Positions 4,292 through 55,453 of a DNA stretch of 64,000 bases are shown in pieces. This DNA is from Scenedesmus sp. ARA3. Its lineage: Eukaryota; Chlorophyta; Chlorophyceae; Sphaeropleales; Scenedesmaceae. The stretch is taken from assembly GCA_004335835.1 (NCBI GenBank), contig RWJK01000132.1, positions 1 through 64,000 on the forward strand, given 5' to 3'. Numbering within the stretch: position 1 is the first letter of the stretch; every line of letters starts with the position of its first letter. A program made the position numbers and the translations under genes. A model generated the notes under the pieces. The model worked only from the letters and a program-made list of their open reading frames with translations. It was not told the DNA's origin and did not search any database.

Positions 4292-7200
4292 GTTGCGGCC
4301 AGCGCAGCAGAGGACGAGTTTGATGACGATGAGATGGATGATGCGAGCTTGTTCAGCAGCAGCGTGGCTGCGACAGGGCCTGGCGGTGACAGCAGCAGCT
4401 GCGAAGACCCAGTGAGCCGGCTGAAGCAGGCGCTGCAGCACACGCGTACTGATAGCGTGGATGCGGAGGCTGTCATGGCGGCATTGGAGGAGAACGGCTT
4501 CCATGCAACTGACGCGCCAGGTGGGCCCCGTCACATGTAACAGTAATGCCTGATTCTTGCACCTTGATGGTGCCTGTGTCGCCGTAAGCAGCAGCAGCAG
4601 CAAGGGGACTGGGTGGGCCCTTGCAGGCAAGAGCGACGGCAGCAGCTTCTGTGATGCCTGGCACCCTCATCTGCTTGCCTGTTATGCACGAATAAGACGT
4701 CGTTTGCCGAAAAGTTGTCGAACTGCACTCTTTGCACACGCTTGCACCTGACCGTACATCCTGCAGCTTTTTTGTTTTGACGATTTTGCCCCTGCAGGCG
4801 GCGCATCTGTGTATGCCAAGCTGACGCTGGATGGCGACAGCCACACCAGTTGCATGGTGTACTGAAGTGCCCTGTCTGGCCCATCACCCTACACCGGCAA
4901 ACATGCATTGCTGCTTGCAGCGCGTTTGTGTACGCCAAGCTGACCCTGGATGGTGATGCCTTGTGGTGTGCTGTTTGTCCCCTGTGCACTCATTCACCCT
5001 GCACCCGCATAAATGACCCTGCAGGCGGCGCGTCTGTGTATGCTAAGCTGACCCTGGATGGCGACAGCCACACTAGCCGGGTAGTATACTGAACAACCCT
5101 ATCTGCCCCCACCTTACACCCCCATCCATGCCTGTGTCCTTGCAGGCGGCGCGTTTGTGTACGCCAAGCTGACGCTGGGTGGCGACAGCCACACCAGCCG
5201 CGTGGTGTGCTGAATAACCCTTTCTGCCCCCATCACTTCACACGCCCTTCCATGCATGTGTCCTTGCAGGCGGCGCGTTTGTGTATGCCAAGCTGACCCT
5301 TGATGGAGACAGCAACACCAGCTGGGTAGTATACTGAAACCCTGTCTGCCCCCATAACTTTACACCCTCGTCCATGCCTGTGTCCCTGCAGGTGGCGCGT
5401 TTGTGTACGCCAAGCTGACGCTGGATGGCGACAGCCACACCAGCCGCGTGGTGGAGCTGGGCCAGGCAGGGGAGGCCGTGTGGGAGCAGAGCTTCTGGCT
5501 GGCTGCTGCAAGGCCTGCAGCGCCAGGCACCACACTGGAGGTGGAGCTGCTGGCCAGCAAGGATGACAAGTGAGGCCATCTTTGCGGTTCTTTTGTATTT
5601 TACAAAAAGCCGCATGCAGCAGGACTCCAGTCAAGTAGTCCCCAAAGGCTTGATAGATGTGGCAGCTTCTGGTGCTTTTATGCAGTGGGACTCTGGGCTT
5701 GTGGCAAGCTGCAACGCTGCAAGCGCCTTGCAGTTTACTGCTGTTGGCGCTGCAACTCACAGCAGGTCACATGAGGAGCAACACGCACATCTGCAGTCGT
5801 GCATTTGATGTTGAGCAAGGCAGCTGGGTTTGCACCCACTGACTCTACCAGCAACGCATCATGACTTCAACACGCATTGTGCTTGTTGTTCTGCTACCCT
5901 GCAGGACACGCGGCAAGCCAGTCGCACACGTCAAAGCATCCCTGCACCAGCTGCTGCAGCAAGCACATCACGCCGACAGCAGCAGCAGCAGCAGCAGCGT
6001 GCCTTGGTTCAAAGCCAGGCACGTGATGCAGGCGCGCTTCTCAGACCACTTGCATGGTAAGCACCGCCCTGGGTGCCGCGCCTGATCATGTGCATGACAA
6101 GAATGTAAAAATGGGCAGAGTAGAATTTGCCAGAGCAAGCTAGTGCTGCTGGTAAGTAAGTAATCAAATTCGAGGCTCCTTGATTGATTGGTGGCCCAGC
6201 AGCTGACTGATCTATGTGCCTGCTGCTGCTGCTGCCGCCGCTTGCAGGTACGCTGTCGTTCACTGTGGAGGCAGCAGACTGGGACAGCCGCGCTGCGCTT
6301 GCAGGGCTGTCGCGCACTCTGCCGGAGCCCGAGCCAGCGTACAGCAGCAGCCAGTCTGGTGCTGCAGGCAGCCGCAGCCCTCAGAAGCAGCGCTCAAGCC
6401 TGCAGCTGAGCAGGACAGCAGCAGAGGCGGCAGCTGCAAGTGGAAGCGCACCAGGCTCACCCACTGCACAGCAGCAGCAGCAGGTGCAGCAGCAGCAGGA
6501 AGGTGCTGCGAAGGCGGCGGCGTTGAACAGATCAGATAGCTCTGTGTCCAATAAGAGCGAAGGCGCTAAGAGCACAGCAACTGGTGCTGGTGGTGCTACT
6601 GTCACCAGCGGCAGCAGCAGCAGTGGCAGTGGTGGCGTCGCCAAGGGTGCTGCGGCTGCTGATGTGTCTGCAGCAGTGCAGGGTGCTGCTGCTGCTGCTG
6701 AGCAGCGCGCACCTGCTGGAATGCTGGATCTTGCTGTGAAGGCGTTTGACACGCGAAAGTGAGCAGCAGCAGACTCGCACAGCTTGCCAGACTGATCATC
6801 TGCTTCTGACAGCAGTCACATGCATGCATGACGTTCAGACTGCAAGCCAATTGTCTGTGCTGATGAGAAGACACAAACAAAAACGCATAAAGTGGAAAGC
6901 CAGCTGATCTTCAATCAACTCAAAAGTCATATTGCCTCCATGTTTGCAGGCCGCTGGATGTGTTCTTTGTGCTGCTGCTGGGCCCCTACTGCCTCGTGAG
7001 CAGCACCAGCCACTCCACGCACCACCACAGCTGGGGCTGGCACCTGCAGCTGCCTCTGGGGGACCCCTCAGACATGCTGACGCTGGTGAGCAGCTTGCAC
7101 AGATGCCTGCATCTCCCCCACATGCACCTGCACAGGCACCTGCACAGGCACAGGTGCCTCTTGCAGCACACGCATGGCACCTGCACAGGCACCTGCAACT

Positions 7201-10172
7201 GCCTGGTTCCTGAAGCTGGCTCTCTGCTGGCTCTCTGCTGGACTCCCACTCAGTTACATGCACGCTGATATGTGCGGCAGAGCTGCCTCAGCACATGCTG
7301 TTGTTCTGCCTGATCGCCAACGGCCTGGGCCAAACGTGCCAACCGTTCTGCTGAATATGTTCTGTGGCTGCTCGTGTTGTTCTGGCAGGCACTGTTTGCG
7401 CGCGAGGACCAGGCGGGCGGCAAGCGCAAGGTTGGCGCCAGCATGCTGACCAACCTGTTCAGCAGCAGCATCCGGCTGGTGGGCAAGCTGCGGGTGCGGC
7501 TGAGCACGATCACGCCCAACGCGCCGCTCAACATCACGCTGCCGCTGCAAGGTGCGCGGACTGGGGATGCCTATGGCGTGATGCATGCAAGAAGAAAGTG
7601 TGTTTGTTGCGTCTGGAGAACTTACACAAGTCGGGTGCATGTGCAGCAATGTGTCAGGATACATGCGGTTTGGCTTCTCCTGCACTGCTTGCAGCTGGCT
7701 CGCGTTGCATAGATGCTGCTTCCTGATGTTCGTGCCTTCCCTACCTATATCTTGCCTGCAGGCGAGCGCACTAACCTGCGTGCTGGCCACAGCTCAGCGG
7801 CCGTGGCGCACCTGTAATTCCACCTGCTTGCAGCTGGCTGGCGTTGCATTGATGTTGCCTGATGTTCGTGCCTTCCCTACCTGTATATCTTCTCTGCAGG
7901 CGAGCGCACCAACCTGCGCGCTGGCCACAGCTCAGCTGCCGTGGCGCACCTGTACTTCCACCTGCTTGCACCTTGCTGGCGTTGCATTGATGTTGCCTGA
8001 TGTTCGTGCTGTCCCTACCTACATTTCCTCTGCAGGTGAGCGCACCAACCTGCGCGCCGGCCACAGCTCAGCTGCCGTGGCGCACCTGTACTTCCACCTG
8101 CGTGTGCCGCACCTGCTGCGCTACTTGGGCTGCTACTTCCGCTTTGCTGCCTGCACGCCCGAGCTGTACCTGCTGGCCAGCAGCAGCAGCGGCTGGGCCG
8201 GGCCTGGCGGCGGCAGCCAGGATTGTAGGCTGGAGGCGCTGGCTGCGGAGGTGCAGGAGACGGCTGCACGGTGCGTAGTGCGCTTGATGCAGTGGGTTGC
8301 TGCTGTACTGTGTCGTCCCGCTGCTGCCGCCAGCCAAGACAGGCTGGCGGCGCGGTGCGCGGCGTATGATTGCTGCAGTGGTTTGCTGTTGGTGCTGCCA
8401 GTGATGGCGGCGCCGTGCACACACAGCATCTGCCATGTGGAAAAACACCATCAGCGATCAGACACACCTCTGTCAACTTGTTGTGAATGCATGGATGGCG
8501 CAAACTGGCACACAGTCTGCCTATGTTTGTGCACTGTCTCCGCGTTCTCCCGCAGGTGGATGGAGCAGCAGCAGCCGTGCCTGCCAGCCAAGATCTTCCG
8601 CAAGGTGCAGGATGACGGCAGGGCGGAGTTCACACTCAGCAGGACACGCGCCAACTGGCGGCGGCTGATCCTGTTGAGAGAGGCGGCTGCGCCAGCATGG
8701 GCAGCCTTCCAGCACCTCTGCAGCTGGGAGAGCACGCTGCACAGTGTGGCCTGCTACTGCGTGATCCTGCTGCTGGGGGTGTATCCGTCCAAGGTGGGCG
8801 GCAAGGGAGGTGGAAGGTGCATCAGCAGTGCTGTTAACATGGAGTTTGCTGTGACGTGCGGGTGGATGGTGTGCCGTGTTACAGTGTTTTGGTGCACGAG
8901 GTGCTGCATTGCGTGAGGGGTGTGAGCAGCATTACCATGCGGCGTGCCCTTCGCAGCATTGACAAGGAACCAGGGGCAGGATACAGTTGATCACTGACAG
9001 ACTGAGGCTGTGTGGGCAGCAACTTGTTGCATGCGTTTAATGTTGCTGGGCTGACTCCTCCTGCGCTTCGTGCACTTGCTGCAGGTGCTGTCTGTGCTGC
9101 TGCTGCTCTGCTGCATCGCGCTGGCGCGCTCAGCCTTCTCACGGCCCGGCAAGCCCACAGCAGCCATGGTGTCGCTAGCAGCAGCTGCTGCATCCACATC
9201 TGGCTCTAGCAGCACAGCTCGCAGCAGCTCCAGCACTCCCAACCCAGCAGCAACAGCAGCAGTAGCAGCAGCTGGCAGCAGCAGCAGCAGTGGCCAGATG
9301 GAGGCTGGCTGGCAGCTGCTTGAGGCGCGGCCGCCGCCTGTGATGTGTGACGTGGCGCTTGCTAGTCCCGATGACGCGCTGCCTGGCACTGCCGTGCCCA
9401 CAGACCCCTACACCAGCCTGAAGCAGAACTATGATGGGCTGGTGCAGTTCCTGACGCTGGTGAGCGGCTGCTGGTGGAAAGTGCGAGCTGTGCTGTGTGG
9501 CCCTGCCACTTCATTTGGTGCTGCAGCGTGAAATAAGGCAGATGGTGCTCACTTGCAGGACTGTTGTGCACATCAGCTACGTACAATATGCCTTTGCACT
9601 GCTGCCTGCTGTGCCGCATGTGCCTGCAGGTGCAGAATGTGCTGGACCACTGGGCCGCAGCTGGTGAGCGGCTGCAGCTGATGTTCAGCTGGTCTGACCA
9701 GCTGGCCACTGGCGTGGTGCTGCTGGTGCTGCTGCTGCTGGCTGCTGGGCTGTGGCTGCTGGGCCTGCGGGTGCTGGTCACTGCAGGCCTCCTGTGGGTG
9801 TTCAGGTGAGAAAGGAGGGCAGCTGACAGGTGGTTTGATAGGACTTGTGGGTTTTGAGCATGGTTGATGCTGGTCAGGTGATGCTGGACTGCTGCTGCTT
9901 GTCACAGCTAGCGAGCCTGTTCCTATCGCTGCTGCCTGCAAGTCAGCTGTAATGCTGAGAGCGAGCTTGCTGCAGCAGCTCCAGTAGCAGGTGCAGCAAG
10001 TACTTCCTGCACGGTCAATCAGCTAGGCGTGGCCAGCAAGCGCTCTGACTGTGTCGCATGCCGTGCTGTGTGTGTGCTGCGCTGCAGGCACCCCATCCTG
10101 CGTGACCCGCTGCCGCCGCCTCCAGCCAACTTTGTGGCACGCATGCCCACGCAGTCTGATGTGATGCTGTGA
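2334..10172 (+). CDS. Multiple C2 domain and transmembrane region protein (MCTP family), 5' partial
   Basis: Plant MCTPs sit at ER-plasma membrane contacts and plasmodesmata, bind lipids through C2 domains and anchor by a C-terminal membrane hairpin. Exons with consistent phases: 2334-2997, 3252-3551, 3816-4520, 5392-5569, 5905-6056, 6248-6758, 6950-7085, 7389-7551, 8036-8270, 8556-8793, 9085-9459, 9630-9805, 10088-10172. Exon 1 has a C2-like start (KVLHVSGI, then DVYCVLSTG). A second C2 runs from VQLVKVTLHRAQGL to LSFTVEAADWD and is split by long Ala/Ser-rich inserts. A third has LVGKLRVRLSTITP. The C-terminal MCTP signature is clear: SRTRANWRRLILL, a hydrophobic segment, AGERLQLMFSWSDQLAT, another hydrophobic stretch, and the ending NFVARMPTQSDVML. 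The start codon is not found. Two exon starts carry decoy duplications (4798-5456 and 7687-8100). Confidence 0.85.
4798..5456 (+). repeat. Six-copy duplication of a 3' splice site plus exon start (MCTP exon 4)
   Basis: Copies begin after AG at 4798, 4921, 5025, 5146, 5270 and 5392, with spacings of 123, 104, 121, 124 and 122 bases. Each holds about 60 bases of intron tail ending in GCAG and about 60 bases encoding GG-A-(S/F)-VYAKLTLDGD. Only the copy at 5392 reads on into the C2 domain. Copies 1, 3, 4 and 5 end VVY or VVC and then TGA in the phase set by the preceding exon. Copy 2 is the most diverged. All keep AG at the expected border. Confidence 0.9.
7687..8100 (+). repeat. Three-copy duplication of a 3' splice site plus exon start (MCTP exon 9)
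   Basis: Exon-like starts follow AG at 7762, 7900 and 8036, about 137 bases apart. Each encodes GERTNLRAGHSSAAVAHL. Copy 1 has TAA where the real exon has TAC. Copy 2 continues for a few codons into duplicated intron and stops. The copy at 8036 is the functional exon. The intron tail (a GTTGCAT...GATGTTCGTGC block) is also repeated three times. Confidence 0.9.
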
Positions 10173-11073: not shown

Positions 11074-14000
11074 ATGGTGGCCTCACCTGCCTGCTTTGAC
11101 TGGCAGCCCTACTCCTTTGGCTTGGGCACCGAGCACTTCACGCCCGGTCAATGTTCTTTCTTTGGATCCAGTGAGTTGAAAGCAGCGGCGGATCAACACT
11201 GTGATCACTGGCATGTCAAGGAGCCCAAGTGTCCCAAGTGTTGAGTACTTGGTTGCAGCACGCCTGACCCGCTTTTGCCCTTGATCTACAGGTCATGCAA
11301 TCTCTGAGGCCGTCGGATGGGTGCGCTGCTTTGCTGACGGAGATAGGACGCAACTGTAGTTCATCCAGCCGATCGCAGTGCTACATTGCAGCAGCAACCT
11401 GCTCACAGTTTGCAACATGTTTCTAGAAACTACAATAGCGGTTGAGCAGTGTACTCCTGCAGCCACAGCGATCGCGGCCCGGCAACCCTAGTTCAAGTCT
11501 TGAAGGGCGGCGCTTCCTGCAGCGAGGGACTACACTACTTCTAGTGCTGCAGCCGTTGCTTTTATGGCAGTGCTTGAGGTACCATCAGCCGGGTCATATG
11601 GAGCACGTGGGTACTGCAGTCAGCCGCTGCGCCCTCGCAGGCTTGCATGCCCAGCTTGGTACCCAATTCATTTGGTATACATTGACTAAAACGATGCTTT
11701 CTGGCATTGTTTGGGTGTCTCCTGCTGCAGGTGATTGTGGTGGCCTTTGGTGCCCTGTTCACCCTGCTTACCAGCGTGCTGGTGTTCCTGGACTACAGAT
11801 TTGGAGGAGCCAGCCACACCAGCGAGCAGTTCTCTACTGCTGGTAAGTACTGCATACATTGGCCAGCATGTGGCACGACCCTTAAGCTATCAAACTGCTC
11901 AGGGGCCACATGCGCCCAGCGTGCATCACACCATACGCGTGTGCATCCATCCATAGGTCCGGCCTATCTGTGACAGACGATCCTTCGGACAATGCGCAGC
12001 CGTTGACCAAGACAGCATTACTCCCTGCAGCATGCACAATGCCAGAACAGAATAGCCTGTGATGCTGCCAGTTCCTCCTCTGCTGCTGTCTTCCCACGAT
12101 TCATGCTATACGCGTGCTGTGCCCGACATCAAGCGCTGCTGTGTCTGCTGCTGCTTGCTTCCTGTGCAGGCCGCAGCATCAAGGCGGGCCTCACGGCATG
12201 CGACATTGTCTCCAAATGGACCTGGGCTGCCACTCTGCTGCAGTCATCTAATGTGAGTCAATTGCATCCACTGCATCACACCAGTTTGCACTTTTGGTTC
12301 GATCCATAGGCCTGCTGTCATCTGTTGTTGGCATCACACATGTGCGGCCAAGCGTCGAGGGTTGAGGCACCTACAACCGCACATCCTCTGCCATAGATGG
12401 CTGCAGGCTGCCTGATACTGAGTCATCATGCACAAATCATGCATGCCATGCAACCATGCGGCACGTGCGCAGATAAATTGCTGATGTTACGCTGGTTGCA
12501 ATGTATGTGCAGGTGGCCTACAAGTTTGGCGTCTCTGGCCCGTTCTGGTATGCTTCAGGTAAGCCTACAGCTGCTCCCCCGCCACCATGCATGCAAGCAT
12601 GTGGTTGTTATCAGCACACCTGTGTTTCTGGTGTGGGTGCTCTTCCAATTGCGTAACCTTTGCCATGCTCTGCGCGCATCACGGCTGCGCGGTCGCTGCT
12701 CTGCTGTAGCATGCTGCTGTACTCGCTGCCTTGACCCACAGTCAGCGCTCCTTCAACACTGTTGCAGACATTGTGAGCACACTGCTGACCTGCTGCTACT
12801 GGTGCTGCTGCTGCAGGCGCCACCATCCAGGTGCTGCTCTTTGCTGTGCTTGCTGTTGAGATCAAGCGCAAGGCGCCCACCACGCACACCTGCCTGGAGA
12901 TCATCAAGGTCCGCTGGGGCACAGCAGCCCACCTGACCTTCCTGGTGTTCTGCCTGCTCACCAACATCATCGTCACATCCATGCTCATCCTCGGTGAGTG
13001 CAATAGCATGCAGTGCCGCGAAAATATGCTGCACAATGTTGCACAGTCGCACACGTGTGTGATATCGCGTCACTTCCCTGCTCATCCTGGGTGTGTGTGC
13101 AATACTGCGGCACACAGTGCAGCGTTGCATGCTTGTAAAGCGCCACAACTTCCCAAAGGCTTGGCGCAAACTCTATAACCTGTGTCGAGCATCCAGTTCT
13201 GCAGCAAGCTGCAGTGCAGCCCTGCCGGCCTGCACATGGCTTGTGTCGCTCTCTGCGCACGCACACATCTGCTGATGTATATGCACCATCTGCAATGTGT
13301 GAAATGCATGCAGGTGGCGCCAGTGTGGTGACTGCTCTGACTGGTGTGAACATCTATGCGGGAGCCTTCCTCATCCCTGTTGGGGTCATGCTGTACACCG
13401 CTCACGGCGGCCTGAAGGCAACATTCATCGCTGCATGGGGTGAGACTGCGGCCCACAATCTGGTGCCTTGACAAACAGAACAATCGCTCACGCTGGCAGT
13501 GCCGCTGCTGCAGCGGCTGGCCATAGCATGTTGCTTGATGTCATGGGTGGCGCTGCAGTCTCTGGGTGTTGTGCAGCCATGCTGCTCGCAAACAGGAGGC
13601 ACGCCACGCAGAGCAATGGAACTACAGGTTCCGCTTGCTTGCTGCAGTTTTGGCAGCACCACTTGCACTCCACTCTCCCGCCCACCCCCTCTAACGCAAT
13701 CATGTCGCCACCCATCTGCTGCTCTCTCCCACCTTCTCTCCCGCTGTGTTCAACTGTACACAACCCAACCCCAGGCCACGTGGCGGTCATCTACATCGCG
13801 CTGTGCACCTTTGCCTTTTTGATCTATGCCTCCCCAAACAGCAAGGTGGGCCTGGGCTCCATCAGCCAGGTCTACGACAATCTTGCGGCCATGAGCATTA
13901 TGCGCCCAGTGCAGCACAACAAGGAGGGCAGCCTGCTGACGATGTGGTCCATGGAGGGGCTGGTGTTTGGCATCATCAACGTTATTGGCAACTTTGGCAC

Positions 14001-14214: not shown

Positions 14215-14249
<35 letters not shown>

Positions 14250-16476
14250 ATCAATCACAGGCAGGGCGCCATCGCTGCCAAGCCCTCCGCCACCTACCGC
14301 GGCTACCTGCTAGGAGGCCTCTGCTGGTTTGCTGTGCCCTTCACCATGGCCACATCCATGGGCCTCGGAGCCCGTGCAATGAACCTGCCAATCAGCATTG
14401 AGGAGTCAAACGCAGGCCTCGTCCCTCCTGCTGTAGCCACAATGCTGCTAGGCCCCGGCGGAGGCTTCCTGCTCGTCTTCCAGCTTTGGATGGCGGTGAC
14501 TGCTTCTGGATCGGCAGAGCAGATCGCTGTTTCCAGCCTGATTGCGTATGACGTGTACCGCAGCTACATCAACAAGAAGGCGTCCGGCAAGCAGATCATC
14601 TTTGTGTCGCGCTGCATCGTGCTGGTGTACGGCGTGCTGTCCGGCGTGCTGGCCATCGTGCTGCTGTGAGTACCCTGTCAGTGTACTGGCTGTGTATGTA
14701 CAAATCAATCTGCAGCTGTGCGCGCCGTCCCACATCACTCAATTCAAACGTCCTGGTCTATGCTGAGCCGCAACGAGTACCGTCCAGCTGCCTGTTTCGG
14801 CCGTTGCTGCTGGTCCTGCTGCCTTGTGTCAATGATTGTATCTTCCTGCTCGTAGTAATAGCCCACAGCAAGATCTGGCTGTCCCTTCGCATGTGCGCAC
14901 CTGTCCACCGCAGAGGGAGATTCTTGACCCTGACTGACTCAATTTTCTGCTGGTGCGTGTCCCTCCCTTCAAACTCACCAATCTACCAACCAACTGCAGC
15001 AAGATCGGGCTGTCCCTGGGCTGGGTGTACCTGTTCATGGGCATCGTGGTGGGCTCAGCAGTGCCCCCTATTGCCTTCTCCATCACCTGGTCAAAGATCA
15101 GCGCTGCAGGAGCCATCTCAGGTGCTATCTCAGGCCTCGTGGGAGCAGTCATTACCTGGTGTGCTACTGCCAAGGGCCTGACAGGCGCTGTTACAATCGA
15201 CACCCTGGGCGGGGACTTCCCAATGCTTGCCGGCAACGTGGTGGCGATTGGCCTGTCTGCAATTGTGTGCATCGTGGTGTCGTTCATCAAGCCACAGGAC
15301 TATGACTGGTGAGCGGCTGGCTGGCGGTTGCAGGGCAATTGCGCAACCCTTGTTCAACTCTTGCTATTTGACCATTGAAGGTGGTGCTTGTTGGCGTGAA
15401 AGGGATGCATCTGTCTGATCAGGTCATGTGTCTGCCTGGTATCAATGGCTGCACATCAGTTGTGCACATGTAGAAAATATTCTCCCCTGTCACCCCAATG
15501 CGCTTGCTCCTCACACTTCCGACATTGCTCTGCCGCTGCTGCTGCTGGTGCTTCTGCTGCTTCTGCTGCTGCTGCTGCTGCACCCCAGGGCTCTGATGAA
15601 GGAGATCCCCATGGTGGAGGACGACCCCAACGCCTTCTCAGCAGACGGCGAGGTGAGCAGCAGCAGCAGCAGCAGCAGGTGCAGCAGTGCCTCAGCAACC
15701 AAGCCGCCACATGCGGCTGCGCTTGAGAGCAGCGGCACTGTTCTTTTTCTACGATTGTTGCTTCAGCTGCGTGGTGTGCCATGGCTGTGTGGCGCGCTTG
15801 CATTGCCTGCTGCATGTCCTTGGTCGCATAGCATAAGTTGGTAAGCTCCCAACAACAGCAAGCTGAAGTGCTGCATGCACATTTCTTGCTGCTGCTGCTG
15901 CTGCTGCTGCAGGACTCCCCCGCCAGCCTGACCAGGGCGCTGCGCTGGACCTACATCACGGGCGGCACGCTCACCCTGGTGCTGGTCATTGCGTGGCCGC
16001 TGCTGGCACTGCCTGCCGGCGTTTTCAGCAAGAGCTACTTCACTATGTGGATCATCATTGCCATCATCTGGGGCTTGCTGGCATCCGGTGAGCAGGATGA
16101 GCAGGAGCAACAACTCGCGCGACACCAAGATAACATGATGGATATGCTTCTTGTGTACTCTGCATCCAGAAGGATACAGCAGCCAGCGGGTTGTCATCTC
16201 TGCTGCATCTCATGTGCTTGTGCACATCTATCCATTCACCATGTTTGTTCTCTGTGCTCACCATGCTGCTGCTGCTGCTCTGCATGTTTGTTATCTCCCC
16301 CTGCAGCCTGCTGCATCCTGTACCCTATCATCGAGGCCGGCCCGCACATCCTGAACATCCTGAGCCACCTGGTGCGCTGCCAGACTGCAGAGTCCCGCGA
16401 TGAGGCAGTGCTGGACACAGTCAAGGCAGTGATGCCGCCCGAAGACATGGTGGGCGCGCACCCAGTCAGGGCTTGA
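11074..16476 (+). CDS. Urea-proton symporter DUR3 (sodium:solute symporter family)
   Basis: Imports urea by proton symport at the plasma membrane, with multiple membrane segments. Thirteen exons splice in phase to 680 aa, close to the plant DUR3 length of about 690: 11074-11170, 11292-11320, 11731-11842, 12170-12252, 12513-12558, 12817-12993, 13314-13439, 13775-14024, 14261-14665, 15000-15308, 15589-15652, 15913-16087, 16307-16476. Diagnostic stretches match plant DUR3: [89 protein letters not shown], and KPQDYDW near the end of the core. The ATG at 11074 gives [10 protein letters not shown], which matches the short N-terminus of plant DUR3. A further in-frame ATG at 11014 would add 20 residues. 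Exon 2 is only 29 bases. Duplicated junction fragments lie at 13068-13105 and 14862-14890. Confidence 0.94.
12971..13105 (+). repeat. Duplicated exon end plus 5' splice site (DUR3 exon 6)
   Basis: The exon end and donor at 12971-13006 (CGTCACATCC through GGTGAGTGCAATA) recur about 97 bases downstream at 13068-13105, where the donor has become GGTGTGTGTGC. The reading frame stays open between the two, so use of the second donor would insert about 33 residues without an immediate stop. Confidence 0.7.
14862..15023 (+). repeat. Short duplicate of an acceptor plus exon start (DUR3 exon 10)
   Basis: CAGCAAGATC followed by TGGCTGTCCCT at about 14866-14887 matches the true exon-10 start at 14997-15018 with one mismatch in 21 bases. 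The upstream copy keeps the AG and the same phase, and encodes KIWLSL against KIGLSLGW in the true exon. The similarity is short, so chance is not fully excluded. Confidence 0.55.
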
Positions 16477-20550: not shown

Positions 20551-20615
20551 GGTCACTCATCTTCCAGCACCAGGTCACTCATCTTCCAGCACCAGGTCAC
20601 TCATCTTCCAGCACA
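20544..20615. repeat. 22-bp unit in three tandem copies, overlapping the ATPase stop codon
   Basis: AGCACCAGGTCACTCATCTT plus CC is repeated exactly at 20544, 20566 and 20588, followed by a partial AGCAC. The minus-strand stop codon of the metal ATPase (20601-20603) lies inside the third copy, so the repeat supplies the end of the protein. Confidence 0.9.
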
Positions 20616-23600
20616 AAGTGTGAGAGGCACGCTGGTAGGAAGCTTCACAGCATTGCCTGCACCCGCTGCTGCTGCAGCAGCAGCTTTGCCGGCTGCCGCA
20701 GCCCTGCTAGGACTCCTGCTGCTGCCGTTGCTGTGGCACAGCCCATCCTCCATGTCTGCAGCGCTAGCAGGTGACAGCCTGGCACCCTGCTTCACCGCAT
20801 GCGCGCAGAAGCCGCTGCTAGGCCCATGGGCTTCCCCGCAATGCGTGTGGTGGTGGTGCTCATGCTGCTGCTTGCGTTGCGGCATGTGCGGCAGCTGCAC
20901 ATCAGACTGCCGCCGGCTGACTTGCTGTTGGCCTGCTGCTGCTGCTGCTGCTGCAGAGCTGCCGCCTAGCAGTGGCGCTGCCCCACCTCCGCTGAAGCTC
21001 TCGCGGCGAGATACTGCTGCAGATGCTGCTGCTGACGCTGCAGCTGAGGCACCCGCTGAGCGACTGTCCAGCCGTTCATAGGCACCACCCAGCCAGCTGC
21101 CACCCGGAAGCTGCAGCAGCAGCTGCTGCCACCAGCTGCTGTGGCCGCCACTGCTGCTGCTGCCGCGAACACCGCTGCCGCCAGCACCCAGCTGCTGCTG
21201 CTGCTGCTGCTTTGGTGCGTGTGTGCCGAACTCGGGCCAGTGCTTGGTGATGCTGCTGGTCCTGCGGACCAGGCTGCTGCCCTCGCTGCTGGCTGCATCA
21301 TGCGCAGCCTCAAAGCGCAGCAGCGTCAGCGCATGCAACGTCACCAGCAGCGACGAGCCCACATCAGCCATCAGAGACAGCCACAGGCTTGCAGCGCCGC
21401 ATGCAGCCGCCACAAGCACCGCGACCTTCATGCTGCATGCAAATGCAGTGTTGAAGGCCACAATCCAAGCCGCGCGCCGCCCCAGCCGCACCGCAAACGG
21501 CAGGCTGGTGAGGTTGTTTGAGAACAGCGCCACATCAGCTGCATCCACTGCAAGCGCAGCACCCGCCACGCCCATGGCAATGCCCACATCAGCAGCAGCC
21601 AGCGCCGGGGCGTCGTTGATGCCATCGCCAACATGCGCAATGCACACGCCTTTGCTGCTGCTGCTGCTGGAAGGTGCAGCAGCACCGTTTGCTGTGCCAC
21701 GCCGGCCGCCGCTGCTGCTGCTGCTGAGGCCCATGCCGTTAATGGTGACCCTACAATCGCACTCCTGCAGCCCACAGCTCGAGCAGCAGCTCGGCTGCAG
21801 CCCGTCCCCACACGCTGCGGCCCACAACCGTCCCAAGATGCTGTACTGCCAGCCGCCAGGCTGCTGCTGCTGCTGCTGCCAGGGCAGGCAGCGCTGCTGC
21901 ATGCGCTGCTTGTGCCGCTCTGCTGCCAGCCGCCGCCGGATCACTGCCAGCATCCCGAGCTTATCCTGCGGCAGCAGCTGCGCGCACACGTCCCCGATAT
22001 CCATGCCCAGCTGACTTGCGATGTGTGCAGCTGCGCCCATGTTATCGCCTGTCATCATGACACAGCGCACACCGAGGTCCTGCAGCTCCTGCAATGCCTG
22101 CATGGCATCCCGCCGCGGCTTATCGCTCAGCAGCAGCACTGCCACAACTTGGCCGTCCACTACCACACACACTGCGGTAGCGCCCTGGCCATCTGCTGCC
22201 GTCATCAGCTGCCGCACAACTGCCATGCCTTCCGGGTGCTGCAGGCTAGCGCTGTCATCACCTGCTGCCGCTGCTGGTGCTGGTGCAGCCGTCTCAAATG
22301 ATAGCCGGCCCAGGTGCTCATCGCTGCTGCTGCTGTTGCTGGCGCGGTGCGCTGTTGCTGCTGCCGCTGCCAGCTCCTGAGCAAATCCCCAGCTGCCGAC
22401 AGCTACTGTCTGACCCCCTAGCTGCCCCAACAACCCCTTCCCAGCCACCTCCACCACTCCAGTCGGCACTGCCGCAGCAGCACCACCCGTTGATGCAATG
22501 CAGCCTCGCGCGGCAGCAGCACCTACCACAGCATGTGCGATCGGGTGGTTGGAGTGCTGCTCCAGCGCTGCCGCGAGCTGCAGCGCCTGCTGCTGCGTGG
22601 TGCTGCCAAAGGTGTGTAGCTGAGTGAGCTGGAAGTGGCCTTCCGTGAGGGTGCCGCTCTTGTCAAAGCTGGCTGCAGTGAGGTTCCCTAGCATCTCGAG
22701 GTACCTGCCGCCCTTGATCAGCACACCCTGCACAAACAGCGCGTTATGACGCGTTTTATGTACAGCGCGCAGGAGCAGCGTCAGTGACAGCGGGAGTGTG
22801 TGATGCAGGTTGCGGCTGGATTATTGCGCGCCCAGCTGCAGCTGCGGCAGCGAGATGCTCAGCAGGCTCAACACACAGTGTGCTGCAGGCTGCTGGCCAG
22901 CTGCTGCAGTGGCGCAGGAAGGCACTCGCCAGCTAGCATGATCATCACAGGCAGCAGTCAAACACGTGCTCAACTCAGCTGCACCAAGCAGTCATTCACT
23001 CCTGCACTCCATATGCACACTGCGCTTGCGCCTCACAAGCATTCAAAACCTATATCTAACAATCTAAAATCAAATCATACATAGCCAAGCCACTCACCCT
23101 GCGTGCTGCACGTGTGAGCCCAGCCACACTAGCCACAGGCGTGCTTATGACCAGCGCACAGGGGCACCCTGTCACCAGCACCACCAGCGACAGGTACGCC
23201 CAGTGACGCCACGCCGCAGGCTGCAGTGCCGCACCCAAGCCCACTGTCAGCAGCGCCACAAGCACCACCAGCGGAGTGTAGTACTTTGCAAAGGCCTCAA
23301 CCGCCATGTCGTGGCGAGATTTGGATGCAGCAGCAGCCTCCATGAGGGACGCCAGCCGCGCGACGGTGCTGTCGCCTGCTGCTGCTGTCGCGCGCACTTT
23401 GAGGGCGGTTGACCCGCTGTTGACCGTTCCTGCAAGCACTGCTTGACCGATCGACTTTGTAACAGGCTTTGACTCCCCGGTGACCATTGACTCGTCCAGG
23501 ACGCTTGTGCCAGATTCAACAGTGCCGTCAACAGGCACTTTGTCGCCTGGCCGCACCAGCACCAGAACACCCGCCTGCAGCTGCGCAACTGGCATTGGAA

Positions 23601-23632
23601 GCAGGTCTGGGCTGGGACTGCTGCTCACCCTG

Positions 23633-23675
<43 letters not shown>

Positions 23676-38258: not shown

Positions 38259-40998
38259 TCAGAACTTGGCCCACAGTAAGCTACCATAGTACTTGCCATT
38301 GGCGGTGCTGCTGGCATCCCCAGCAAACCCATAGTCGGCCGACTGCGCCAGCCGCTCGTCAGCAGCAGCCTGCAGCGTGGTGAGCTGGTCAATCCCAGCA
38401 ACGCCGCTTGTTGGGCACGCACCAGACAGAAAGCAAGTTGCAGCAACACCAGCCACATGTGGGCTTGCCATACTGGTACCAGAAAGCTCCCTGTACCCTG
38501 AAGCCTCCCGAGCATATGAGATAGTGCTCAGGATACCATTGCCGGGTGCAGCAATCACGCGGTTCTTGTCGGCGGCCGCAGCATCTGCCGGCATGAAGTT
38601 GGAGAAGCTCGAGGGCGTGTTGCTGGCTGGATCCATGGAGGTGACAGCAATAACATTAGGGCAGGAAGCTGGCAGGTAGCCGCGGGTGTCACTTGCATAG
38701 TTTCCGGCGGCGGCAATGACCACAATGCCTGCGTCGCTAGCTGCCTTGAAGGATGCACAGACCAGGTCCATTGTCGCCTGGTAATCGGGGTCTGTTGGCG
38801 CGATGTATGCAGCCAGCGAGAGGTTGATAACCCTGATGTTGGCCTTTGCTTTGCCCTCAGCGCTTGCAGCCCATTCAACAGCAGCCATGGCGTCTGACAG
38901 CGCACCAACGCCCTGCGCATCCAGCACCTTGAGGGAGTACAGGGGCAGGCCTGGGGCAATGCCCACAACGCCAGCTCCTGCAGATGGAAAGCGGAGAAAG
39001 GACACGTGGTAGGCAGGCGGCAGCAGCAGCAGCAGCAGGGCGTTCGAGGGGGCAGCTATGCCACAAAGCGCCCAGATGTGCCGGCAGATAGCAGAACCAA
39101 AGGCACAGAGCTCTGCAGATGATGCTGAGCAGCTGGATGTAGCAGCAAGTGCCAACACGGCATGTACGACACTACGGCAGTTCAGGGCAGCAGCTACTGC
39201 TTGCCACAACCATGCACGGCGGCTGCTGCACACTGCAGCTGCCTTCCACTGCTGCTGCTGCTGCTGCTGCTCACCGTTGTTCTTTGCTGCCACAATGCCA
39301 GCCACATGTGTGCCGTGGCCATACTTATCCACATCAGCATCCGCAACATCACCAGCCACCTTGGCTGATGGGATGACCCACGAGCTGCCTCCGATCACAT
39401 TCAGGTCCGGGTGTGTGCCGTCAATGCCGCTGTCAACCACGCCAACCACCACCTGCCTGTCTGCAGGCACGCCGGCAATGCTGAAGACAGCTGCTGCAGA
39501 GCCAGCTTCGATGCGGCCCACACCAGAGGGTATCTGGTCGCCGCTTGTTAAGGGCACCCTGGCTTGGGTGAAGCCGGAAGGCCCACCACCACCCATGGTG
39601 GTGGTGGGCGGTGTGCCGGGGTTGCCAGTGGTGGCTCCGGTGCCGCCGGCGCCGCCAGAATTGGGGTTGGTTGTGTCAGAGCTGCCGCCTGCGCCTGGGT
39701 TGCCGCCTGTTGCTGAGCAGATGCGGGTGGGGAGTGTGCGCGCCAGTGATGGGGCTTGGCCGCTGCAAGCAAGCAGATGGCGCAGGGGAAGCAGGAGATG
39801 AAGCCAAGGGTAAGAGCAGCAGGGGGAGATGCGATGCTGCTGCTGGTGACAGGTGTAGCAAGCAGCCACATGAGCTTTGAACAGCCAGATGAGCTTTGAC
39901 AGACAGCGAGTTAGCACAGCACGAACAGGGCAGTAGTGCTGCACAATACACAGCAAACACACGTGCACTTTGCAGCGCAGCAGGTAATACACGGCATGCA
40001 GAGCAGGGGCGCAGCTGCAGCAACTCACCAGGCTCCAAACCGCTGCCGAACAAAGGTGGCGCCAAGGCTGGCGGACCCAGACAGAGACAGCACGCAGGGG
40101 GCCCTGTTGTTCATGATCGGCGCATTTGTCACTCTGTCGACGGATCTGATCTCAATGTATGAGATCTTGCCGCCGCTGCAGGCGCTGGCACGCCAGATGA
40201 GCTTGGAGCGAGGCGTCATGCAGCCGGCCCATTTGAAGCTAGGGAGAGGCGTTGCTGTGATGCCTTTCTGCAAATACGAGCGCTCCACGCAAGCCGTCTG
40301 CTGTGAGGCAACCACGCGGTCCTTGACGACTGCCTTGACCACGCTCGAGGCCTTCATGAACTCGATAGCAGAGTCTGGCGCGCTGACAAGCAGAGACCTG
40401 GGGCGAGGGGCAGCTGCCGCGCCGGCTGCAGCAGGGCCTGCTGCTGCTGCTGCTGCAACGCCAGCGGCTGGCTCAGCAGCATCAGCGCTGCCCAGGGTGC
40501 GCAGCACCTTGAAGGCGCTGGCTTGGTGTGCTGCTGCTGTCACCACGCCATTGCTGACAGACGGCGCTGCTGCTTCCATGGCTGCCTGCACTTCGCTGAC
40601 CAGCACCTCGCCTGCAGCTGCTGCATCCACAACATCATCTGCAAGATGCAGGAGAAACTGGCCTGATATTATGTGGTCCAGGTCTGCAGCAGGTGACAGA
40701 GCAGGGGCAGCACACGGCGACGTCAGGTATGATGTATGAGCGTTATAGTTTGCTGACTTAATAACATGAGCGTTATCATTTGCTGACTGCCACATGTTTA
40801 TGCTACAGGAATTGCTTACGAAGGCCTCCGAGCACGTCCGGATCCGGTGTGGCTCGCGGGAACCGGCTACACCAAGAAACTCAGCCAACGCACGATGTAA
40901 ACCCAACGCATTTGCTTCAACGTACCTGGAGTCGACGCAACACCGCTGTCTTCTTGAATGGACTGTTGCTGAGACCCTGCACCCGGCCCCGAACACAT
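38259..40998 (-). CDS. Subtilisin-like serine protease (peptidase family S8)
   Basis: Cleaves peptide bonds with an Asp-His-Ser triad. Exons on the minus strand: 40998-40926, 40879-40820, 40638-40029, 39762-39275, 38977-38259, all in phase, giving 649 aa. The catalytic residues are visible: Asp358 in VVDSGIDGTHPD, His397 in GHGTHVAGIVAA, oxyanion Asn503 in AAAGNYA, and Ser579 in GTSMASPHVAG. Residues of about 175-205 (LLVSAPDSAIEFMKAS, then VKAVVKDRV) may be an I9-like propeptide. A Gly/Thr/Pro/Ser-rich linker precedes the catalytic domain (about 265-310). The arrangement resembles proteinase-K-like S8A enzymes. The ATG at 40998 gives no clear signal peptide, and the first two small exons are the least certain part, so the true start may lie upstream. 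Intron 4 begins with a CAG tract and, if retained, reads as poly-Gln between His397 and the rest. Confidence 0.88.
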
Positions 40999-48801: not shown

Positions 48802-48924
48802 GCCAGCTGGCAGGCGCAAAACAGACTGCAGCACCTTGTGTGGGCGATGACGGGAAGGTGCACAGGGATGTGCACATGGCAGGGCTAGTGAGGGGCCCTT
48901 TGACGAGCCTGTGTGTGTGGTGCG

Positions 48925-48929
48925 TGTAA
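48925..48929 (+). terminator. Candidate proximal poly(A) signal TGTAA (GATA gene)
   Basis: Lies 124 bases past the stop codon of the GATA gene. Confidence 0.4.
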
Positions 48930-50386
48930 GCTGGCTAGGTTTGGCTGCAGAAGCCAGCGGCTGGTGGGGTAGAACTGAGCACGTTTGTTGCGTGGCAAAC
49001 ACTCTGCAAGCCAGCCCTCAGGACAACGCTGCAGGGTTATGTCGTGGCAGTACTTACACCGAACTGGCGGGGGTGGGGGGTGGGGGCAGCTGGCGGGTAC
49101 CCTTTACCTAAACCGCGTGTAGGGCGCTTTTTCTTATGCACAACAGAGAGTCGCCGTAATAATGTGAGTATGTGCAGTTTGTGTACAGCAGAATCAGTCA
49201 ATACTGCCGGGGAGCTGTGCTGCAGCCTGCTGTGTGCAGGGGCGCTGGCTTGGAGGACGTGTGTGCACGTCATGTGTTGGCTGCACCTTTGACCATCTTG
49301 CACTTGCACGGGCGCTGCAGGGGCTGGCTAAGACCACCCTGCAGCTGCCTGTGGTTGCACGAGTTTGACACCTTTCGCGCAGTCTGCGTGTGGCGACACG
49401 CGTCAGTTTACCTTCCTCTGGTGCACCAGGTGCACTGTAGTACGCACTTGCTGGGGCGCTTGGCAGCTGTGTCTGCAGCTGCAAGCACCTCTCAGCATCT
49501 CCACCTCCTCTGGTTACCTTTCCAGAGGTCGCGCAACCAGCAGAGCTCATGCGTCTGGCTTCTCCTATGGGTTGGCTTGGGCCTGGGCCTTGGGTGTGGT
49601 CCGGGACTGGTTGGCAGCCAGCTGCTATGCGGGTGTCTGGCAATGCATGCATCCTTCGTGCTGTACATGCTGTGGCGGCAGCGGCTGCTTGTGATGCTGG
49701 CTCGTGAGCTGTGAGTAGGCAGCAGGTCGTGATGGGATGGCGACGTGATACCACCGCTGTTGCAGTAGGTGTTCTTTGTAGTGTAGCAGACACTGCCGGA
49801 CAGGGCCATGACATATGCTGTGTGCGCTGAGAAGACGTGCGGTTGCGTGGTGTGCATGTGTGCAGGCGGGGTTGAGTGATGCAGGGTGGGTGCTGTGGCG
49901 CGCTTGGGTGCTGCAGCAACAGCATTTGCTGCATGCCGTGTGTACAGCATAACTGCTGGCAGGCACATCACATTACAATTTGACGCAAAACGTGTGGAGT
50001 AGAATGACATGATACAGCATGTGTATGTTCAATTCTCTTTGTTTCCTTACCTGCGATAAGCGGACGAAGGCTGAAAAGGTGGTGTCAGCCTTCTTGAGTA
50101 CTTTTGATGGTCGCGTTGAATTGCTTTTGGCTGCCATTTATTTGCTTGTTGTCGGGAATGCAGGGACGGAGTTTTCCGTTGATGTACATGTCTGCACATG
50201 CCTGCCTGCACTGCAAGGATCTTCAAAATTGCTGCTTGCATGAGCGGTTTGTATTGCTTCAAGTGGCGCGAGTGATCAAGGGATGCATGCATTGCTTGGT
50301 GTTGTTTGTGTCCGCAAGCAGACTGCCAGCCTCTCCTGCTGTTGCCTCTTTGGAGGTGTCTTCCTACTTTGCTGGACAGCTGGATG

Positions 50387-50391
50387 TGTAA
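50387..50391 (+). terminator. Candidate distal poly(A) signal TGTAA (GATA gene)
   Basis: Lies about 1.6 kb past the GATA stop, where the GT-rich character ends. It would give a long 3' UTR like those proposed for neighbouring genes. Confidence 0.3.
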
Positions 50392-50710
50392 CAGATCACT
50401 TTAAGCATCAGGAACGCGCGCATAAGTCTACGTTAAGTGCTCAAATGATTAAAGTACATGAGGTGTTCAATGCTGTAGGCGCTGCGCCAATTCAAAAGCG
50501 AAGCTCGCCGTGAAAGTCTGTCACTCGTCGTCACGCTGACATAGAACCAGCGCCAACGCCGAAAGCTGTGCTAATGTAGCAGCTGTCGACGTGGATACCC
50601 AGACATTCTATTGCTGGTGCTTTTCAACAATGTCAACATCCCAGCCGCTGCTTCAAGTAACGTGCTTGTGAAAAAGACTTCTAGCCCTAGCTGTCCTCGT
50701 CAGCGCACCT

Positions 50711-53700
50711 ATGGAGACAGCATCCGCCGTGCCACAGGCAGAAGAAGCCAGCACAGTATACGAGGTTGGTGCATGGTAGCAGCAGCTGCTTGAAGGGATG
50801 AAGCTGCTTGCTGCTGAGCAGCGTGCAGTGCTGGTGCTGCATCCATGCATCTTCGGTGTGCACTGTAATATGCCGTGCTGCTGCTGCTGGTGGCAGACAT
50901 TGCCAGATGCATGAAGCGCGATCTAGCCTCTTGCAGGATGAAGCTATTTGAGACTGTTGTTTGCATTGAACAAGATAGACAGAGGAACCTGCTGCTGCTG
51001 CTGCACAGCGGCATACACAGCAATGCAAGCTGCTGCTCTGGCATAGCTGCACTGGGATGCTTGCAGTCTAGCTGCCTGCTCAACTCCTGCCAAGCTTCGA
51101 GCCTCCTGTCTGTGGTGCACGCACACACCACCTATCCTAATAGGGCACTTGATATGACATCCTAGTAGGCGTGCCGCTAGGATGCTTGCATGCATTTGGA
51201 TGCAACAACGATGTCGACACATCGCACACGTGTACATGCAGCGGAGCTTGCACAAGGGCGGGTGGTAGCCTGTGGCAACTCATCTGCATGCATCCGCTGC
51301 TGTTGACTTTTCGCGTAGCTGCACAGCCCTATGTAAAAGGAACGATTTTTAGCTGTATGTGGCCGCAGCACATGCCCATCAACATCCTCCGCTGTGCTGA
51401 TACACGCTTTCCTGCAGACATCCATCGCTGTCGTGGACGAGCCGAAAGGCATGCTGGCGCCTGAAGCAGCAGGCAGCGCTGCTCCACTGGATGCCCACCA
51501 CAAGATGCTGCACGAGGGCTCCATCCTCTCCTCACACTTCAAATCCTACCAGCAAGCCCTCTCAAAGTACACAGCCGCCGCCAGCAGGTTCATGCACGCC
51601 GCAGACGACTTCATAATCAGCGCAGGCCAGCCGGCAAAGTACGAACACAAGCTGACGCCAGAAGGCCAGGCCGCTGCTGCTGCTGCCGCTGCTGCTGCTG
51701 CACCTGCACAAGCCGGCGTAGATGAGACTGCAGGACCTGCTGCACTGGCAGCGCCAAGTGCATTTGCAGCAGATGCAGCACAGCCGTCCACGCTGCCACT
51801 GCAGGGCCCCGTGGCAGGCTACTACATCTGCCCCGGCATGCCTGGAAGCCCTGCGCTGGGTGCTGCTGGGCTGACACACACTGCGCCTGCTGACATCCTG
51901 CTGCCCAGGCAGCATGAGGCGCTGTTCAGGTGGGGCGCAGGGCTACTGCATCGCACACATCGTACGGACGACAGCGCCAATGCAGCGCTTCACCCTTGGG
52001 AAGTTTGTGGTGATTGCAAGCGCGTCACTTACAGCATCGCACACATCGTACGGACGGCAGCGCCAATGCAGCGCTTCACCCTTGGGAAGTTTGTGGTGAT
52101 TGCAAGCGCGTCACTTACAGCATCGCACACATCGTACGGACGGCAGCGCCAATGCAGCGCTTCACCCTTGGGAAGTTTGTGGTGATTGCAAGCGCGTCAC
52201 TTACAGCATCGCACACATCGTACGGACGGCAGCGCCAATGCAGCGCTTCACCTTTGGGAAGTTTGAATCCTACACGTGTCCGTCGTACTTGCTGGCGGCA
52301 CGCTCGCTTCTGCTGCAGGCTTAGCCGAGCCCATCCGTATTTGGTTATCATAACGTTGATGTTTATCTGTGGTGCTTTGCAGGCACGACATGCAGCGCAA
52401 GCTGATCGCAGCCGGCAGTGACGGCCTGACAGCAGCACTGCAGGAGAAGCTGGCGCCTGCCTTCAAGGTGCGGCGGAGCCTCCTCTGCGAGTGCATCATG
52501 CATCAGCGCATTATTTATGCATCATCAATTCACTCACAGTGCATCATCAGTGCATCGTCAGTTGAATTATGGGGCACCCGGCTTAGCCTGTGTGCCAGGA
52601 GCAGGCGCATTTTGGCTGCCAACAGCACACAGCCAATGCTATAACAGGGCTGGTTGTGTTATGTGTGCTAATCCACTGGCTGGCTGACAAAGGCAGACTG
52701 GTATAGTGCAGTCAATCTGCTTTTTGCAGACACCCAGTGGATTAGCTACAAATTGCGGCCAACAAACTGAACAGCACTGCACCTGCCTTCATCGTGTGAC
52801 TACACCACTACACTGCTACATCATGGTAATCCTCATGCTTGCTTGCATGGATGCACTTTGACGCTGCTGCGCCCTTGCATTGCTGCCACCCTGCACTGCT
52901 GTGCTGCTGTTAACATGGAGTTTGCAGAGTTTTCTAGCATGTAAAGCAGCTGCTGTGCTGCTGCTACTGCTGCTGCAACTGCTGCTGCTGCTGCTCCTGC
53001 CAGGTGTGGCTGGGTGTGTATGATGAGTGCAAGGGCCTGCTGCCTGAGGTGGAGCGGCTGAGGAGGGGCGCTGAGGGGGCACTGGCGCGCCTGCAGCATG
53101 CAAAAAAGAAGGCGAGCCCCCCCCCCAATGCATGGTGCTGTATTGAACGTAGAGGCGATGATGGGAATCCAGGCAACAAGGATGATGTTGTGGCAGCATC
53201 GGACATGCCAGGCACTCCTGTGGTGTGCACGTTGACGTGATGTTGCCTAGAAGGAAATGACTCGCTTTTGCATTTGCGCTTCGTGTTTCCTCTCACCACC
53301 AAGTCTGCGCCTTCTTGTCACTGATAGCACTGCCCTTGACACCACAGCCGCCACCAATGCGCCCGCCGCCGCTGCTGCTGCTGCTGCCGCTGCTGCTGCT
53401 GCAGGTGCTAGAGGCCGAGGCCGCCTCCCCGCTGGTGAGTGGGCAGCAGCTGCAGGATGCCGGGCAGCTGCCGCGGGTGCTGGTGCAGGGCACTGCTGGC
53501 GGCTTGGTGGCCACGCCAGCTGGGCCACAGCGCCAGGAGATGTACCGCAAGGAGACCGAGTACACAGGTGTGGTGCGGGGTAATGTTTTGCTTACCTGGT
53601 GCTACCTAGTAGGGCTATGCTGTTGTTCAGCTTGTGGTGACGAGGTGTCTGGCTTCGGGGCTTTGTACTTTCTGCACTAATGTCAGCTTCAAAGAGCTCA

Positions 53701-55453
53701 GCGCCACTGACTGCAGAATTCATCTGCCTTGCAAGGGCGGCGGTGGCACATGCCAGGTTCCATGTGACCAGTTGTTCCTTGAAAACTAACCTTGCACACA
53801 ATGTACACCTGCTGTTGCTGTGTCTCCCTGACACCTTCTGCACGCTTGCTGCTCCATTGCCTGCACACCTGTGCTCCTGCTGCCTCGTTCACCTGCCCAT
53901 CATCCAGATGCGTCTCTTGCATTCAAGCTGGCAGAGAAGGTGCTGCGAGACAAGCTGCTGCTGCAGCTGCAGCTGCTGACCCTGCCGGCATACTGTGCTC
54001 CTGCTGTCTTGTTCACCTGCCGCAGATGCTTCGCTTGCATTTGAGCTCGCAGAGAAGGTGCTGCGAGACAAGCTGGGCTGGCTCATGCAAGCAGGCGCAG
54101 GCCTCAAGGGCACTGCTGCTGCTGCACTGGGCCATGCGCTGCGCGCTGCAGCAGCAGAGGGGCAGCGAGGCCAGGCGCCTGGCGGCACTGCTGCTGCTGC
54201 TGCTGCTGGGGTGGGCCTGAGGGCGCCTGGGGAGGAGCTGCTGGAGCCGTTTCCTGCACATGTGCTGGTGAGAGGGCAAAAAGCGCAGGACACAAGCCTG
54301 CGCTGCTACAACGAAAAGTTGTTAACTTGAGATGGGAGCTGTGGTTGTGCCGTACTAGACTTGCACTTATCTGCCAGCTGTGCAATTATTTTTGGTTGCG
54401 TCGTGAGCATGCTGCTCGTGTGGTACTGTATGTGGTGCTGCCTGCAGGCCCGCCTAGCCGGCCAGCACCTCCCAACCCTGCAGGCAGTGGTGATGGCAGA
54501 TGCCAGCCGGCTGGCAAGGTGGGGCCAGCGCTGCCGCGCAGCCATTGCTACAGCAGCAGGCGCAGCAGCAGCTGCAGCAGGCGCTCAGATGCTGGCAGCA
54601 GCAGCGGCGCCTGCAGGCGCTGCCACTGCACTGCCTGCTGCTGGTGCGGTGGTTCCTGCAGGCCCGGTGCACGGCCTTGTGCGGACAGATGACGATGCAA
54701 CGCAGCAGGCCGGTGCAGCAGGCAGTGCAACAGGGGCAGCAACAACAGCTGGCACCACTGCAGAGGTGCCCATGGGCGGTCCTGCTGCAGTCGGTACAGC
54801 AGCAGCACCAGTAGCTGGCAGCGCGGCGGCATATGCAGCGTCTGATAGCCTTGTTGGCGAGCTGCAGCAGGCGGCAGCAGCGTCAGACGTTCCGCTGGAG
54901 CTGCTTGCGGCAGCAGTGAGTGCAGATGTGCAGGAGCGCGAAGCTGTGGAGGCAGCAGCCAGCAGGGCTGATGCATCGTGGCACCTGCTGCATGATGCCA
55001 GTGTGGTGGCTGCTAAGGAGGAGGCTGTGCTGCTGCCTGCTGTGCTCAAGGTGGGCGTGGTGCAGAGGAGAGTTGTGCCGACATGACAATGTGGCGGCGC
55101 TGTAAGCTGTCCTGCCAGCCGTGGCTACATTGAGCACTTGCAGGACAGCAAGCAGCGAGTGTTTCGGCACCCCTGAACTATGATCATACCACCCCCACCG
55201 TGCACGACTGCCAGGTTTGAAGGACTTCTGTCATTTGGGAATTTGTGCAACGCGCCATTACTGAAGTGCGAGGCAGAGAGGGTGCTTGGTGACATGCCCT
55301 GCATGTGCTGCTGTGTTCACCAGCCATCTGCTGCTGCCGTCCAGCAGCTCCTTTGCTCCAGCAGACCATACCACACAGACGGTGCCTGTGACAGGCACCC
55401 TCAAGGCCATGACCCACCCAATAAAAACTGTGATGATAGTTTGCCCTGCTATT

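Follow-up and report, generated by a model that had tools for sequence, protein, structure and literature searches.

Recurrent short direct duplications at predicted exon–intron junctions of a Tetradesmus-like green alga

Predicted exon–intron junctions in the alga studied here repeatedly carry an extra, same-strand copy of themselves nearby: in 188 kb of the genome we find 17 such junction loci in eight predicted genes, corresponding to about 3.6% of predicted junctions (17 of 474, or about 1 in 28). The best explanation, and in our judgement probably the correct one, is that these are ordinary short direct duplications, which survive at junctions since the extra copy is thrown out by splicing. 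Directly observed are the duplications themselves, with their orientation, recurrence and sizes, as well as the pattern of substitutions and the copy used by those relatives that are available; the repair mechanism, neutrality and actual splicing in this strain are inferred. Several observations count against the explanation, namely that junction loci are in excess where spacing is at least 90 bp, that their spacing has a lower limit, that AG and GT are retained in the extra copies, that changes in one gene, gene 1, are biased towards third codon positions, and that at three loci the farthest copy matches almost no intron.

Sample and methods

The genome comprises 87,267,035 bases in 1567 contigs (87.3 Mb). 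The window, by which we mean the whole 64,000-nucleotide stretch at positions 1-64000 of contig C74, forms part of a main sample of 188,038 bases (188 kb) from eight contigs, and a further 20 kb (L020 and L021) brings the total to 208 kb. Genes were modelled by a hidden Markov gene finder that reads both strands; after training from seed exons and repeated iteration it returned 45 genes and 258 introns in the 188,038 bases, with a median exon of 134 and a median intron of 226. Twenty-one short predicted exons that fell within arrays were treated as extra copies and taken out, leaving 237 introns and 437 usable junctions, of which 436 were scored.

The models were checked against relatives and are supported at the positions of interest. 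The predicted SMC5 protein, encoded farther along C74, is 95% identical to one Tetradesmus obliquus protein, 87% to another and 76% to a protein of Scenedesmus sp. NREL 46B-D3, and by these predicted-protein identities the strain is a Tetradesmus-like green alga near T. obliquus. SMC5 matches three relatives after removal of several doubtful predicted exon bits: we discarded 91760-91864, 89839-89846, 89507-89509, most of 89911-90112 and extra residues at the start of the 91598-91710 stretch, all of which relatives lack. The gene finder thus over-predicts some exons. The predicted DUR3 protein aligns to solved structures without insertion at both of its duplicated junctions, and gene 3 agrees with a T. 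obliquus protein at both joints concerned. Pfam searches on single exons found a subtilase gene and a hydrolase gene, and found DUR3 only after exons had been joined; an Rfam search returned nothing at gathering thresholds. The subtilase gene lies on the minus strand at window 38259-40148. The hydrolase gene, also on the minus strand (window 20601-25839), has a haloacid-dehalogenase hydrolase domain and many low-complexity runs, and we take it to encode a P-type ATPase.

Duplicates were scanned for as same-strand local pairs with a score of at least 18. There are 172 such pairs in 188 kb, versus one in three dinucleotide shuffles, and they group into 52 arrays. Sorting by hand put 17 of them at junctions and 11 in introns only; 7 are confined to exons, and 12 are intergenic or otherwise noncoding, among them #5 and #17, whose neighbouring gene ends are uncertain. 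The remaining 5 were dropped, #10, #34 and #41 as weak and far apart, #23 for its uncertain gene model and #51 for its mixed exon repeats. For loci #21 and #22 the spacing is given as the unit (107 and 105), with the nearest copies 161 and 111 bp away.

Duplicated junctions in the window

Gene 1, which spans 0.9-10.2 kb of the window and has no Pfam domain in the stretch searched, carries two acceptor-side arrays (Table 1). In array A the copied exon starts lie at about 4798, 4921, 5025, 5146 and 5270 and the real junction at 5391; a relative, P0122, presumably from a transcriptome assembly judging by the style of its name, has this exon head once. For array B, where no relative confirms single-copy use, the relative P0121 lacks the first residues, so that the true acceptor is possibly a second AG deeper in the unit. 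A separate 91-bp unit, present in 2.7 copies at window 656-900, lies in a predicted intron and ends about 15 bp before the predicted acceptor.

Table 1. Duplicated junctions and related features of the window (window positions; gene structures are predicted)
Feature	Positions	Strand	Description
Array A, acceptor-side	4787..5453	+	Unit about 122 bp; acceptor and exon head present in five extra copies upstream of the real one
Predicted real exon, gene 1	5392..5569	+	From the gene model; array A continues into it with its last copy
Array B, acceptor-side	7685..8104	+	Two extra copies (about 7762 and 7900); unit 138 bp; predicted acceptor 8036
Donor-side duplicate, DUR3-like gene	12971..13124	+	Predicted donor 12994 (junction 12993); GT-bearing copy 99 bp downstream
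Acceptor-side duplicate, DUR3-like gene	14866..15037	+	Predicted acceptor 15000 (junction 14999); copy 131 bp upstream, similar in the exon head only
Intron-internal tandem array, gene 3	51944..52265	+	86 bp x 3.7, 98% matches; no junction crossed
Acceptor-side duplicate, gene 3	53869..54080	+	Predicted acceptor 54026 (junction 54025); copy 118 bp upstream

The next gene, at 10.7-16.5 kb, is a predicted DUR3-type urea-proton symporter (SSF domain in Pfam; best solved relatives DUR3, E 8e-187), whose two duplicates are weak as well as short, scoring 20 and 18 in the scan. In the donor case the first copy is the one joined to the exon body, and the extra copy keeps GT. Gene 3, at 50.7-56.4 kb, matched nothing in Pfam over the stretch searched; among its relatives P0123-P0126, two of which are annotated predictions, P0123, P0124 and P0125 carry the duplicated exon head of 53869-54080 once. 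Its other array falls within a predicted intron (51930-52382), at 15 bp from the donor, and a T. obliquus protein joins the flanking exons exactly there (...EALFR/HDMQ...). This 86-bp array is a possible length-variable marker.

An earlier note on this DNA had described six places where duplicated blocks span a splice site, five on the acceptor side and one on the donor side. Five of the six do so (5391, 8035, 12993, 14999 and 54025), and the sixth, at 51944-52265, is intron-internal; the real count is four acceptor, one donor and one intron-internal. In all four acceptor cases AG is kept in the upstream copies, and it is the last copy that leads on to the exon, as had been described.

Recurrence across the sampled genome

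The recurrence beyond the window that the same note had expected is found: 12 of the 17 junction loci in 188 kb lie outside it. The genes concerned are gene 1, DUR3, gene 3, SMC5 and two each on C120 and C50, with no junction loci in three sampled 10-20 kb contigs, C40 (4 kb) or C1000 (10 kb). SMC5 (C74 81485-92744; L015 and L016) has five, and two of its exons, 83247-83418 and 86116-86259, have extra copies on both sides. One intron on C50 holds one donor copy and five acceptor copies. Directly after an extra donor copy on this contig (L008, about 567-615) there is a palindromic AT-rich insert, possibly a small mobile-element remnant.

With gene finder and threshold unchanged, the further 20 kb adds three junction loci, each of them in L021; a donor-side case in L020 (3263-3397) is doubtful, lying in repeat-coding sequence, and was left out of the counts. 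Across all 20 loci, 12 are on the acceptor side versus 8 on the donor side (two-sided P 0.50), and the acceptor bias suggested earlier thus disappears. Two of the donor-side copies in L021 (3999-4342 and 4873-5073) have an acceptor-like site in front, giving predicted exons of 81 and 42 nt; both lengths are multiples of three and so readable in frame, and these copies are possible newborn in-frame exons.

The copies are direct and lie at a characteristic distance. Inverted copies accompany 0 of 436 junction windows at a score of at least 20 (0.5% at 18), versus 7.8% (8.7%) for direct copies. In the 188 kb the nearest copies are 99-140 bp from the real site, and 161 bp in one locus, with farther copies at 211-274, 311-367, 459-471 and 592-594 bp; in L021 the distances are 150, 152 and 251 bp. 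Head-to-tail repetition resembling a minisatellite is seen at 5020-5449, 7685-8101, 51944-52265 and C50 #40, and only partly at two-copy loci.

Origin of the duplications

We propose that short direct duplications arise by break repair or replication slippage, in a manner that would not be aimed at splice sites. Neighbouring copies are mostly 99-152 bp apart, some fully head-to-tail and some separated by unrelated filler. Within exons, mainly in-frame duplications would survive. Across a junction, survival would require a whole splice site on the copy that is joined to the exon body; the spliceosome would use this copy, the other would leave with the intron, and the duplication would be tolerated because splicing removes it. 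The discarded copy would then be free to drift, and some loci would amplify into arrays.

Several observations bear on this scheme. First of all, spacing is divisible by three in 5 of the 7 exon-only arrays in 188 kb, the exceptions (491 and 536 bp) being weak matches (score 18), and in all 7 of those in the further 20 kb, one of which overlaps a predicted 50-bp intron. Second, the form expected from break repair, a short direct duplicate sometimes with a non-homologous insert, is seen in the orientation of the copies and at 5391, 14999 and C120 10220. At these three loci the exon head of the farthest copy matches well but the intron over only 0-8 bp, which by subtraction leaves about 50-90 bp of unrelated filler between copies; this is unlike a plain tandem duplication and counts against the scheme. 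Third, in genome searches the array A unit (no second match anywhere), the 86-bp unit of 51944-52265, the intron stretch 14680-14998 (at the sensitivity of the search used) and the C120 10220 insert each match their own place only, so no dispersed family is seen in these four stretches, three of which come from the 17 junction loci.

Two other sources of the copies were set aside: a second diverged allele or homeologue, the array A unit having matched nothing else in the genome, and an assembly error, most copies differing by 10-25%.

Are junctions enriched?

The earlier note took the duplications to be anchored on junctions, and this finds support in one of two tests, where it depends on the persistence assumed. 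In the window test, a comparison of the kind that the note had itself named as able to refute it (100-bp windows with a direct copy within 700 bp at a score of at least 20), direct copies accompany 7.8% of junction windows (n=436), 8.0% of intron-interior windows (n=600), which themselves contain extra junction copies, 7.5% of exon-interior windows (n=600) and 1.8% of intergenic windows (n=600), and junctions do not stand out from intron interiors. The opportunity test, which counts arrays with spacings of at least 90 bp against possible placements, does give an excess: in 188 kb, junction loci make up 17 of 21 arrays versus 30% expected (P 2e-6), or versus 46% (P 0.001) and 56% (P 0.016) if junction copies are taken to persist twice or three times as long. 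Compared with introns alone, the figure is 17 of 20 versus 50% expected (P 0.001), with 67% (P 0.06) and 75% (P 0.23) expected under doubled and tripled persistence. In the enlarged sample it becomes 20 of 23, with P values of 0.0002, 0.03 (doubled) and 0.14 (tripled) against the same shares of 50%, 67% and 75%, which were computed for the 188-kb set and reused. Junction duplications may be too common for pure accident.

Spacing separates the junction loci from the rest. None has a spacing below 97 bp, versus 19 of 23 other noncoding arrays below 90 bp, and the first 17 loci have a mean of 118 (s.d. 13), compared with 20-121 bp for the other noncoding arrays (Mann-Whitney P 1.7e-6). In every one of the 11 acceptor loci, the recognised exon copy ends 42 bp or more before the real AG. 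Some lower limit is expected on functional grounds: after the duplication there must still be a usable splice site and a stretch of exon long enough for recognition.

The excess at spacings of at least 90 bp and the narrow spacing relative to other noncoding arrays, together with the exons decoyed on both sides (C74 83247-83418 and 86116-86259) and the non-homologous filler, would also follow if the mutational process were itself linked to junctions, in that breaks or stalled replication, for instance where R-loops form during transcription, would time and again copy about 120 bp around the junction, whether or not filler comes between. We consider such a process unlikely, since the spacing floor can follow from the need for a workable splice site and a recognisable exon, longer persistence of junction copies accounts for much of the excess, and the window test shows no difference between junctions and intron interiors. 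The fuller proposal, that junctions in Tetradesmus-like algae are hot spots of a distinct duplication process placing copies about 100-150 bp apart and that the extra sites are retained through a part in splicing, appears to us distinctly doubtful.

State of the extra copies

Among 39 copies with an aligned splice site, 33 show AG or GT. We kept 30 as clear (score at least 23.9, within 650 bp), of which 29 show AG or GT and the thirtieth has a gap in the alignment but AG in the sequence; the 9 weaker or farther rows were dropped as chance, 5 of them being without an intact dinucleotide (GA, A-, CG, CC and TG). Over the 17 loci, 0 of 34 splice-dinucleotide sites have changed; the figures are about 10% for first and second exon positions and 25% for intron sites. 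Depending on the rate and on the omission of loci whose alignment ends at the splice site, P for this retention lies between 0.01 and 0.14. Extra acceptors have a mean score of 5.96 (23 copies) and their real partners 7.51, the 95th percentile of other intronic AGs being 5.53.

When each site is counted once, 67 of the 128 substitutions that separate extra from real copies are at third codon positions, with 19 of 44 in SMC5 and 30 of 60 at loci outside SMC5 and gene 1. Gene 1 excluded, these counts are about as expected for a dead copy beside a living one, for which we estimate 0.44-0.50. In gene 1 (arrays A and B together), the count is 18 of 24 and, unlike that of SMC5, exceeds what one-sided constraint gives (P 0.002).

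The proteins of relatives, rather than transcripts of this strain, bear on which copy is used. Three relatives' SMC5 proteins, themselves annotated predictions and read by eye, pass straight through all five decoyed junctions, and the duplicated segment is absent from alignable relatives in SMC5, gene 3, DUR3 and array A, the loci for which relatives give this confirmation.

The intact AG or GT of the 30 clear copies, the high scores of the extra acceptors and the third-position bias of gene 1 are what one would see if selection maintained the extra sites to slow or divert splicing, in the role of regulatory decoys or poison exons. This we hold to be improbable: the extra copies in SMC5 look neutral, the P value for retention is weak once loci whose alignment ends at the splice site are allowed for, more than half of the dropped weaker rows have no intact dinucleotide, and the proteins of relatives ignore the copies.

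A derivation of the arrays from intron gain or from the duplication of whole exons, links drawn in the earlier note, is highly improbable, for although the two L021 donor-side copies with an acceptor-like site (42 and 81 nt) are possibly in frame, the anatomy differs in that the copies are partial exons at one side of an existing intron, their segments are absent from the SMC5 of relatives, and 0 of 52 arrays form the donor-acceptor pair of one intron, a count that old decayed pairs would escape. None of the 17 loci holds a whole-exon copy with both splice sites, the two L021 copies being a possible exception to the pattern; at C120 2378, a weak alignment nearly reaches the end of a 62-bp exon, not its donor.

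Relation to known systems

The nearest parallel that we found is in human genes, where internal tandem repeats at exon–intron boundaries, 62-126 bp long in the larger intron class, alter gene structure (De Grassi and Ciccarelli 2009, PMC2812944). Both systems have short repeats on exon–intron boundaries. The human repeats are variable and turn an exon into a new intron in recent paralogues, whereas the algal extra copies occupy introns that already exist, in ordinary genes, and the proteins of alignable relatives lack them. Intron gain by tandem genomic duplication, in which a duplicated exonic AGGT forms both ends of the new intron (PMC3443670; Drosophila cases in PMC2891723), also involves a small tandem duplication near splice sites. 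In the alga, on the other hand, a single end of an existing intron is copied. Other work on intron boundaries includes the Rogers model.

In rice, short direct duplications, tandem or partly tandem and with or without filler, come from break repair; they are like the algal ones in form and, in the portion of the source relied on here, are not placed on splice junctions (PMC7407515). By analogy, break repair may be the source of the algal duplications. Vaughn and Bennetzen (2014) reportedly dealt with tandem and partly tandem duplications in rice. Introner elements are new intronic sequence carrying splice signals (PMC9860276) and have similar copies at many places in a genome, whereas the four algal stretches searched match only their own place. 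A literature search, thin on subscription journals, found no description of the pattern in this algal group.

With ordinary duplication and splicing as the preferred reading, there is still room for more than neutral duplication, given the excess at junctions, the narrow spacing and the unbroken dinucleotides; if the junction excess is true genome-wide, splicing or transcription would be tied to local DNA duplication. A recognisable and often strong self-copy at about every twenty-eighth predicted junction amounts to a natural experiment on how the spliceosome chooses its sites, and also on intron growth. Annotation errors are to be expected as well, the gene finder having called its 21 short exons inside arrays. 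SMC5, because its protein is conserved, is a good test gene for decoyed junctions.
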